In this document: piece by piece, positions 46,649-60,864 of the stretch
Layout of the letters: the number at the start of each line of letters is the position of its first letter
Numbering within the stretch: position 1 is the first letter of the stretch
The notes under the pieces: model-generated
The model's input: the letters and a program-made list of their open reading frames with translations, nothing else
Databases searched by the model: none
Told to the model about the DNA's origin: nothing
From: Methanosarcina vacuolata Z-761
GTDB lineage: Archaea > Halobacteriota > Methanosarcinia > Methanosarcinales > Methanosarcinaceae
Assembly (NCBI RefSeq): GCF_000969905.1
Contig: NZ_CP009520.1
Span: forward strand, 4,216,001 to 4,280,000
DNA: 64,000 nucleotides
Direction of reading: 5' to 3'
Program-made: the position numbers and the translations under genes

Positions 46649-46683
46649 TAGATTATTTTGTAAATTCCATGTAGAGACTACAT

Positions 46684-46778
46684 ATCACCGTTATGATTAC
46701 AAATCACCGTTATGATTACAAATCACCGTTATGATTACAAATCACCGTTATGATTACAAATCACCGTTATGATTACAA
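46684..46778. repeat. Tandem repeat, 19-bp unit, 5 copies
   Basis: Five exact copies of ATCACCGTTATGATTACAA follow each other, and a degenerate sixth begins at 46779. There are no spacers, so it is not a CRISPR array. It sits downstream of two minus-strand genes. Confidence 0.9.
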
Positions 46779-46852
46779 ATCACAGTCATGTGGTGTATGT
46801 CCAGAACTGCTGATCCCCGCGTCTTTATTCCTTCGATATCGAAAGCCAGATA

Positions 46853-57842: not shown

Positions 57843-58060
57843 TTCATTCCCCCAAATTATATATTAAATTCATTTTCCAGAATAAAAAAGTAAGGTCGTT
57901 TAACTTTTGAAGCGACAGGAAACGAAAAACTACGCATCTGAACCTGCGGAATCAGATAAGATTCAAACGAATCTCATCATCCTGGGTTGAGTGCAACTGT
58001 TGACCCTCAATAGTTACGCCGGTTGATCATGCTGACCACCTTGTTGCTTGAACGCCTGGG

Positions 58061-58144
58061 TTTTCGGTCAAACCTTTTTTGAAAAGGGTTTTCGGTCAAG
58101 CCTTTTTTGAAAAGGGTTGCGGACAAGCAGTTTTTTGAAAAGGG
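58061..58144. repeat. Tandem repeat, 28-bp unit, 3 copies
   Basis: Units starting TTTTCGGTCAAGCCTTTTTT lie at 58061, 58089 and (diverged) 58117, each ending GAAAAGGG. A fourth GGTTGAGGGAAAGCAATTA is remotely similar. It lies 34 bp beyond the 3' end of hisB, in the otherwise empty gap 57843-58177. Confidence 0.8.
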
Positions 58145-58177
58145 TTGAGGGAAAGCAATTATTTCAAAAGGCTTGCC

Positions 58178-58753
58178 TCACAGAGTACCTTTAGTGCTTT
58201 TTACCTCATTGCCCTCGATTTTTACAGCACGTTTCATTGCATAGGCAAAAGCCTTGAAAAGAGCTTCGATTTTGTGATGGTCATTATCGCCATAGACACT
58301 CGCATGGATGGTAATTTTTGCATTTGAGGCCAGCGTTTCAAAGAAGTGCTTGACAAGCTGGGTACTGAATTGTCCTACCTGAGGAGATGAAAACTCAGCT
58401 TTCAGGACAAGATAACTGCGTCCGCCTACATCCAGGGCGACCTCGGCAAGGGCTTCGTCCATTGGAATTCTGGCCTCCCCAAAACGGGCAATTCCTGCCA
58501 TATCTCCAAGCGCCTCTGCAAGCACTTTTCCGAGAACTATTCCTGTGTCTTCCACAAGGTGATGCTCGTCCACGTACAGGTCGCCGTCCGCACGTACTTT
58601 AAGGTCAAACTCTGCATGCCTTGCAAAAGAAGTAAGCATATGGTCAAAAAACCCGATCCCTGTGTTAATATCGGCAATCCCAGTGCCGTCAAGGTTCAGC
58701 TCAAGCTGGATATCGGTCTCTTTTGTTTTGCGGGACAATCTGCCTGTTCTCAT
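58178..58753 (-). CDS. hisB: Imidazoleglycerol-phosphate dehydratase
   Basis: This 191-residue enzyme catalyses the sixth step of histidine synthesis. It has the two metal-binding repeats: [20 protein letters not shown] with [14 protein letters not shown], and [17 protein letters not shown] with [15 protein letters not shown]. There is no phosphatase fusion. It is on the same strand as hisA and hisG but separated by about 136 bp, so the his genes here are adjacent rather than tightly packed. Confidence 0.95.
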
Positions 58754-58889: not shown

Positions 58890-59633
58890 TCACTCATGCC
58901 GGATTATTTCAATCGCTGCTTCAAGTGTGAACCTGCCTGTGTATAGAGCGCTGCCTACCACCACTCCTGCTGCCCCAGTTTTCTTCAGGACCTGAAGGTC
59001 TTGAAGGGAACTTACTCCTCCAGATGCGATTACCGGAATGCTGACAGATTCCACAAGTTCTTTTGTAGGGACAGGATTTACGCCCTGCATAAGGCCTTCG
59101 GTATCGATATTTGTAAAAAGCAGGCTGCCTGCACCCAGTTCTTCAAACTTCCTGCCCATTTCTACAGGAGTTTGTGAGCATTCCTCAGTCCAACCTTTGA
59201 TAGATATTTTTCCGTTTTTTGCATCCAGGGCAACGGTCACACGTTCGCTTCCAAAGGCATTTGAGAGCTGTTTTACAAGGTCCGGGTTCTGAAGCGCAGC
59301 CGTTCCGAGAATCGCCCTCGAGACTCCCAGTTCAAGCAGAGAAGCTGCGTCCTCAAAACTCCGAATGCCTCCTCCAACCTGAATCTGCACCCCTTTTTCC
59401 TGGCATGCACTCACTATTTTTTCGATTATAGGGGCGTTTTTACGCTCTCCTTCAATTGCTCCGTCCAGATCTACCAGATGCAGGGTCTTTGCCCCTTTTC
59501 GAACCCAATCAAGAGCAGCTTCAACAGGATCGTCAAGGGACACAATCTCACTGCCAGGCACTCCCTGCACAAGCTGAACGCACTTTCCGCCCCTCATATC
59601 CACTGCAGGAATTACTTCAAAAACCAAAGTCAC
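58890..59633 (-). CDS. hisA: ProFAR isomerase (HisA)
   Basis: This 247-residue TIM barrel isomerises ProFAR to PRFAR in histidine synthesis. VIPAVDMRGGKCVQLVQG holds the first catalytic Asp. GGGIRSFEDAASLLELGVSR, NIDTEGLMQGVN (second Asp region) and IASGGVSSLQDL are present. The only suitable start is GTG 59633, which overlaps the end of a repeat-encoded frame (ATGTGA) next to fourteen 21-bp repeats. The repeat tract therefore forms its leader. Confidence 0.94.
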   Translation of the reverse strand: MTLVFEVIPAVDMRGGKCVQLVQGVPGSEIVSLDDPVEAALDWVRKGAKTLHLVDLDGAIEGERKNAPIIEKIVSACQEKGVQIQVGGGIRSFEDAASLLELGVSRAILGTAALQNPDLVKQLSNAFGSERVTVALDAKNGKISIKGWTEECSQTPVEMGRKFEELGAGSLLFTNIDTEGLMQGVNPVPTKELVESVSIPVIASGGVSSLQDLQVLKKTGAAGVVVGSALYTGRFTLEAAIEIIRHE

Positions 59634-59645
59634 ATCTCCGACACG

Positions 59646-59939
59646 TCTTTGAGAAATCTCATTCTATCTTTGAGAAATCTCATTCTATCTTTGAGAAATC
59701 TCATTCTATCTTTGAGAAATCTCATTCTATCTTTGAGAAATCTCATTCTATCTTTGAGAAATCTCATTCTATCTTTGAGAAATCTCATTCTATCTTTGAG
59801 AAATCTCATTCTATCTTTGAGAAATCTCATTCTATCTTTGAGAAATCTCATTCTATCTTTGAGAAATCTCATTCTATCTTTGAGAAATCTCATTCTATCT
59901 TTGAGAAATCTCATTCTATCTTTGAGAAATCTCATTCTG
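59646..59939. repeat. Tandem repeat, 21-bp unit, 14 copies
   Basis: Fourteen nearly perfect copies of a 21-bp unit (TCTTTGAGAAATCTCATTCT plus A) fill the gap between hisG and hisA. Each contains the palindrome TGAGA-AA-TCTCA. Because 21 is divisible by three and the unit lacks stops, frames on both strands stay open. The minus-strand frame (59630-59950) would encode MRFLKDR repeats ending at the hisA start. Confidence 0.95.
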
Positions 59940-59994
59940 TTAAATCCCATTCTGTTTGTCTTGCCTGAAAACCCATTTTCCGGATTTTTTCCTT

Positions 59995-60864
59995 TCAGGG
60001 CATTATTCTTTCGATAGGTACGACAAGAACGTCACGCGCACCAACCTTCTTCAGCTTATTTACAATGGTAAAAATCAGATCTGCGTCCACAACAGCATGA
60101 ACTGCAAGGATGGATTCTCCGGGCAATTTGCTGGACTCGACCTTCATAACCGTCGGACCTGACATTCCTGGAAGGACTTCTTTTACTGCTTTGAGGGAAG
60201 ACTCGGGAACATTCATCATAAGATAACGCCGATGCTTTGCATTTAGCACGCTCTCCAGTGCAGTTTTTATGTCCAGAATTTTTTCCTTTTTCTTGAGGCT
60301 TTCCTTATTTGCAATCAGATAGACTGTGGAAGAAAAAACGGTGTCAATAGGCTTTAAATGATTAATCAACAGAGTGGTTCCGGAACTTGAGATGTCCACG
60401 ATTGCATCCGCTATTCCCACATGTGGAGTCATTTCACAGGCTCCGCTAACCTTTATAACCTCAACATTGATTCCAAGATTGTTGAAGTACTGGCGTGTGA
60501 TTTCCGGGAACTCGGTTGCAATCTTTCGGCCTTCAAGATCCTCTGCTTTCTGGAAATCAGAGTCCTCAGGGACAGCCAGAACAAGGCTAGCCTTTCCGAA
60601 TTTAAGGTCCAGAAGAGTTTCAACCTTTGCTCCTCTTTCCGTAATCAGATCTATGCCTGTAATACCTACGTCTGCAGCCCCATCCTGTACGTACTCAGGA
60701 ATGTCAGCAGCCCTGGCAAAGAGGATATGGATATCCGGATCGGTAGTTTTTGCAAAAAGTTTTCGACTTTCGGCCCCTCCACTTATTGGGAGCCCTGCAT
60801 CTTTGAAAATAGAGATTGTGGGTTCGTAAAGGCGCCCTTTATTGGGTATTGCAATGCGAATCAT
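59995..60864 (-). CDS. hisG: ATP phosphoribosyltransferase, long form
   Basis: This 289-residue enzyme makes the first committed step of histidine synthesis. RIAIPNKGRLYEPTISIFKD opens the catalytic domain. DVGITGIDLITERG and the PRPP-binding DISSSGTTLLINHLKPID follow. A C-terminal ACT-like regulatory domain of about 75 residues (GMSGPTVMKVESSKLPGESI) marks the HisZ-independent, histidine-inhibited long form. GAGGA lies about 9 nt before ATG 60864. Confidence 0.95.
   Translation of the reverse strand: MIRIAIPNKGRLYEPTISIFKDAGLPISGGAESRKLFAKTTDPDIHILFARAADIPEYVQDGAADVGITGIDLITERGAKVETLLDLKFGKASLVLAVPEDSDFQKAEDLEGRKIATEFPEITRQYFNNLGINVEVIKVSGACEMTPHVGIADAIVDISSSGTTLLINHLKPIDTVFSSTVYLIANKESLKKKEKILDIKTALESVLNAKHRRYLMMNVPESSLKAVKEVLPGMSGPTVMKVESSKLPGESILAVHAVVDADLIFTIVNKLKKVGARDVLVVPIERIMP

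Follow-up and report, generated by a model that had tools for sequence, protein, structure and literature searches.

The window, the whole stretch of 64,000 nucleotides from Methanosarcina vacuolata Z-761 that was analysed, carries hisG, hisA and hisB one after the other on the minus strand; an archaeal-type S-adenosylmethionine synthetase gene lies nearby on the opposite strand. The hisG–hisA gap is occupied by fourteen 21-bp repeats arranged head to tail (Table 1), as the initial annotation had described. Thirteen of the 14 copies share one sequence; the copy nearest hisA, the last of the array, differs from them by a terminal C instead of T. Tandem Repeats Finder (TRF) reported a period of 21, 14.0 copies, a match of 100% and a score of 586, the highest of the 26 rows obtained for the window. 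Each copy was confirmed to contain the dyad TGAGA-AA-TCTCA (14 matches versus 0.78 expected in shuffled sequence). The extent originally assigned to the repeats, 59630–59950, is correct for an open frame that runs through them; the array proper has narrower limits. The partial unit that adjoins it on the hisG side is also found, as AGAAGGAGATTTAAC, in the two-copy sister genome G029.

A whole-genome search for the unit, one of the checks proposed in the initial annotation, returned these 14 copies alone at up to three mismatches. The array is a satellite as defined in PMC6749651, which asks for four or more tandem repeats of 10–200 nt with internal regularity, and confinement of the unit to one genomic locus, at which sisters hold one or two copies, identifies its origin as local. 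CRISPR and other spaced direct repeats were ruled out, the copies being joined without spacers. Searches of the literature returned no paper describing the hisG–hisA array.

Table 1. Features of the his region and additional tandem repeats in the window.
Feature	Position	Strand	Basis
hisA	58890–59627	−	PF00977, E 1.1e-80; start most likely TTG 59627–59625 (ORF list: GTG 59633)
hisG	59995–60864	−	PF01634, E 3.1e-55; also PF08029
hisB (imidazoleglycerol-phosphate dehydratase), the following co-oriented gene	58178–58753	−	PF00475, E 5.3e-65
GGAG, putative hisA Shine–Dalgarno sequence	59636–59639	−	surrounding GGAGATG invariant in 19 aligned Methanosarcina
21-bp tandem array, 14 copies	59645–59938	−	unit AGAATGAGATTTCTCAAAGAT, last copy ending in C; TRF, motif and genome search
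15-nt partial unit AGAATGGGATTTAAC, hisG side of the array	59939–59953	−	TRF row 59927–59956, 15-bp period
open frame of 106 codons spanning the repeats, unlikely to be a gene	59630–59950	−	ORF list, conservation, Shine–Dalgarno, Pfam
27–28-bp word containing CCCTTTTCAAAAAAGGCTTGACCG, 3–4 tandem copies downstream of hisB	58058–58176	−	
19-bp unit TACAAATCACCGTTATGAT, 5.5 copies	46679–46783		TRF, 98% match

Start codon of hisA

Two elements are invariant among the 19 Methanosarcina, namely GGAGATG and, at least eight bases downstream of it, the TG of a start codon. The GTG at 59633 varies among the same genomes, being replaced by GAG in G010 and by different triplets elsewhere, and follows GGAG at a distance of only two bases. 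The most likely start codon of hisA is therefore TTG 59627–59625 and not GTG 59633. Shine–Dalgarno energies computed with the standard anti-Shine–Dalgarno sequence amount to −9.1 kcal/mol for TTG 59627, −5.8 for hisG, −6.2 for hisB and −2.5 for ATG 59950, the first codon of the frame through the repeats. With hisA starting at TTG 59627, the overlap that had been claimed between its GTG start and the TGA of this frame drops out; the frame ends 2 nt before the TTG.

The hisG–hisA gap in related species

We measured gap lengths from the hisG stop codon to the Phe5 codon of hisA and aligned the gaps of the relatives; each species is represented by one genome, so that differences in copy number are differences between species. 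Most Methanosarcina gaps are 71–141 nt long, the exceptions being those of the source genome (373 nt) and of strain DH2 (311 nt). Outside Methanosarcina and its nearest kin (Methanolobus, Methanococcoides, Methanohalophilus and others; L063–L099) the gap is mostly 12–30 nt and the ribosome site directly follows the hisG stop; the Methanosarcina spacer is long and variable.

In the barkeri-type clade, a word ending in ...AGATTTCTCAAAGAC stands immediately before the ribosome site of hisA in one or two copies. The repeat word is present once in G023/UBA5 (gap of 82 nt) and twice in G029, G028, G016 (M. spelaei) and G002 (gaps of 120–139 nt), with some copies diverged. This comparison of orthologous gaps had been suggested at the outset, together with the idea that copy number may vary by slippage; copy numbers in the clade, which range from 1 to 14, bear out the variation, for which slippage is a presumed mechanism. 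On a hisG plus hisA tree the nearest row is G029 (94% identity), which joins the source species with moderate support (89/85). All 14 copies of the array and the second copy in G028 have the variant AATGAG; most other copies in the clade have AAGGAG. Since the second copy of G028 is already AATGAG, expansion of the array probably began with a copy of this type, and the G028 copy likely represents the precursor state. The presence of one or two copies in the gaps of the sisters marks the array as a lineage-specific expansion.

Unrelated units occupy the same gap in other species: 16 bp × 3.6 in G014, 15 bp × 3.3 in G004, 13 bp × 3.5 in KYL-1 and 12 bp × 3.1 in G040. In Methanosarcina sp. DH2 (L029/L047) the gap holds an independent 22-bp unit, AAGGAATTAGTAATGAAGTATC, in 8.9 copies, the length of which is not a multiple of three. 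Together with the array of the source genome, the gap arrays require six changes on the hisG plus hisA tree, at least five of which are forced by well-supported branches. Judged from this tree, the gap repeats of at least five other Methanosarcina-type species (12, 13, 15, 16 and 22 bp) are of separate origin.

Tandem repeats elsewhere in the genome

Methanosarcina has been singled out for its satellites, with 35–406 per genome and the most in M. vacuolata (PMC6749651). As a background we sampled 40 stretches of 20 kb at even steps, i.e. 0.8 Mb or about a fifth of the genome (0.86 Mb with the window). TRF found 111 arrays of at least four copies in the 0.8-Mb sample, corresponding to 139 per Mb; 44 of the sampled arrays with periods of 10–60 lie between co-directional genes according to a crude ORF call. 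Periods divisible by three show no excess among intergenic arrays (19 of 85), as opposed to 15 of 18 genic ones. Within the 0.86 Mb examined, the 14-copy array has the top score among periods below 60 and is the only one that combines at least ten copies with a TRF match of 100%. Its purity and length are thus unusual even in the source genome. They fit recent growth, the high purity being our reason for considering the array young, and could also reflect selection or homogenisation.

Two further tandem repeats were seen in the window (Table 1). The word containing CCCTTTTCAAAAAAGGCTTGACCG has 61 occurrences in the genome at up to two mismatches, versus none for a reversed control, often in tandem pairs or clusters (for example at C2:3536540–3536806); it is a dispersed, locally tandem element. 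By HisA, the relatives of the source genome are Methanosarcina. The first 20 kb (L125) of the second contig, G000:C1 (58,133 bp), were matched to plasmids: one of Methanosarcina sp. Kolksee at 98.3% over 62% of this length, and, less closely, those of M. barkeri MS, 227 and Wiesmoor at ∼85%; these matches span polysaccharide-biosynthesis and glycosyltransferase genes.

Alternative explanations

The number of copies could in part be an assembly product, the true array being longer, shorter or mixed. A near-perfect repeat of 294 bp exceeds common short reads, so that 14 copies are easily miscounted; tandem repeats are described as a recognised source of assembly error (PMC6868369), and Borg assemblies needed correction of wrong unit numbers (PMC9879509). 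Against this, the contig is chromosome-sized (4.5 Mb), the genome is 99.99% complete and no sign of an error is visible in the assembly, and we regard a miscount as unlikely.

The array might instead tune hisA as a 5′ element of variable length, with slippage-driven copy number altering mRNA stability, spacing or hisG–hisA processing. It is embedded among his genes and immediately precedes the ribosome site of hisA, and its copy number varies from species to species. Bacterial VNTR loci upstream of genes are phase-variable or tuning arrays, and the array resembles them as a copy-number-variable repeat in a 5′ region whose variation is seen between species. Tuning by copy number is a property of those loci; for hisA, the predicted accessibility is unchanged from 1 to 14 copies (0.75–0.78 for the Shine–Dalgarno sequence and 0.94–0.97 for the start). 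A single unit folds with −2.8 kcal/mol, and adjacent copies are predicted to pair TGAGA with TCTCA; summed over the whole gap this pairing is strong, with a minimum free energy of −107.9 versus −90.5 ± 4.8 kcal/mol in whole-sequence shuffles (z −3.59). Such shuffling destroys the repeats and is therefore an unfair control: against tiled shuffled units, the 14-fold array yielded −89.0 versus −88.2 ± 24.3 kcal/mol (z −0.03). RNAalifold detected no conserved hairpin at the site of the unit in the relatives, the only conserved pairs lying in the Shine–Dalgarno/start region and being weak (−0.5 kcal/mol). An Rfam search returned no credible match; the single sub-threshold hit, inside hisA, scored 14.3 bits (cut-off 50) with a human lncRNA family and is due to chance. 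We accordingly rejected a structured RNA leader: of the chain of small hairpins first envisaged, the pairing is possible, but it is no stronger than in arrays of shuffled units. The array is missing from close relatives, and elsewhere the gap holds unrelated repeats or none. Regulation of hisA by the array is in our judgement distinctly unlikely, and it is still less probable that the Methanosarcina hisG–hisA spacer is a recurrent repeat hotspot, in which a length set by slippage would tune hisA relative to hisG and the 14 copies would be an extreme.

The 106-codon frame is present as annotated, running on the minus strand from ATG 59950 through MRFLKDR heptads (MGFNR-MRFLKDR...) to ATGTGA. 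It could be a translated small gene, coupled to hisA by terminating at its start, and its length and the position of its stop, 2 nt from the inferred TTG, speak for this. However, ATG 59950 has no Shine–Dalgarno sequence, unlike hisA, hisG and hisB, and the frame is not conserved in the sisters, where it opens 4 or 17 codons before the stop, has no matching stop or, in G028, is shifted by a 1-nt deletion. A long open frame arises automatically because the 21-bp unit is free of stops in one frame; at least one sense frame is open in 5000 of 5000 dinucleotide-shuffled units and in 92% of freely shuffled ones. The 106-residue product has no Pfam match at the curated cut-off, and its three sub-threshold matches have no significant stretch and look like repeat artefacts. 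The main text of the M. mazei Ribo-seq paper mentions neither hisA nor hisG. Lacking a conserved frame or start and a ribosome-binding site, and with its openness expected by chance, the frame was rejected as a protein-coding gene; that it is one is highly improbable, and the proposed coupling of its translation to hisA, which had relied on the unconserved GTG, is not supported either.

It is least probable, to a degree that leaves the idea scarcely tenable, that the palindromes offer a DNA-binding protein multiple binding sites or act as a decoy for it, as 14 dyads phased at a constant 21 bp (about two helical turns, hence facing one side of the DNA) might suggest, since 55% of dinucleotide-shuffled units contain arms of at least five bases, the word is absent from the rest of the genome, and the dyad, at which no hairpin is conserved, is lost in relatives (G018 and G001 read GAAATTTCTC; mazei-type species differ more).

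Discussion

Taken together, the array is very probably a lineage-specific minisatellite, likely young and near-neutral, that grew from a state of one or two copies upstream of the hisA ribosome site, which is intact. Growth would have started from a two-copy ancestor of the word just upstream of this site, and replication slippage or unequal recombination may have added the extra copies, a process in which the adjoining partial unit would have assisted. Such copies would be tolerated because they lie 5′ of the intact hisA Shine–Dalgarno sequence in a spacer whose length appears free to change; near-neutrality is accordingly probable. The open frame and the palindrome would then be by-products of the repeated word with no role of their own.

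The array looks like a kind already known, ordinary for Methanosarcina, and not like a new gene or control device. Satellites of at least four units of 10–200 nt are very frequent in the genus, with units mostly below 30 nt and many of them unique in sequence (Subirana and Messeguer 2019, PMC6749651). The hisG–hisA array is of the same kind, but is purer and longer than the short-period arrays sampled and lies between his genes. It also resembles the tandem repeats of Borgs, which consist of perfect units of ∼20 nt, are recent and independently formed, are missing from close relatives, have flanking partial repeats and are intergenic or in frame (Schoelmerich et al. 2023, PMC9879509). The two differ in location, Borgs being linear and extrachromosomal in Methanoperedens and the hisG–hisA array sitting on a Methanosarcina chromosome; and strong selection is said to act on in-frame Borg repeats, whereas the frame through the hisG–hisA array is unconserved.

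The array therefore stands as a clean example of the repeat growth typical of Methanosarcina genomes, of little importance beyond cataloguing. It may serve as a marker for strain typing if its copy number proves variable, and the hisG–hisA gap, in which states of 1, 2 and 14 copies exist alongside parallel, unrelated arrays, is for this reason a handy place to determine the rate at which archaeal minisatellites grow.
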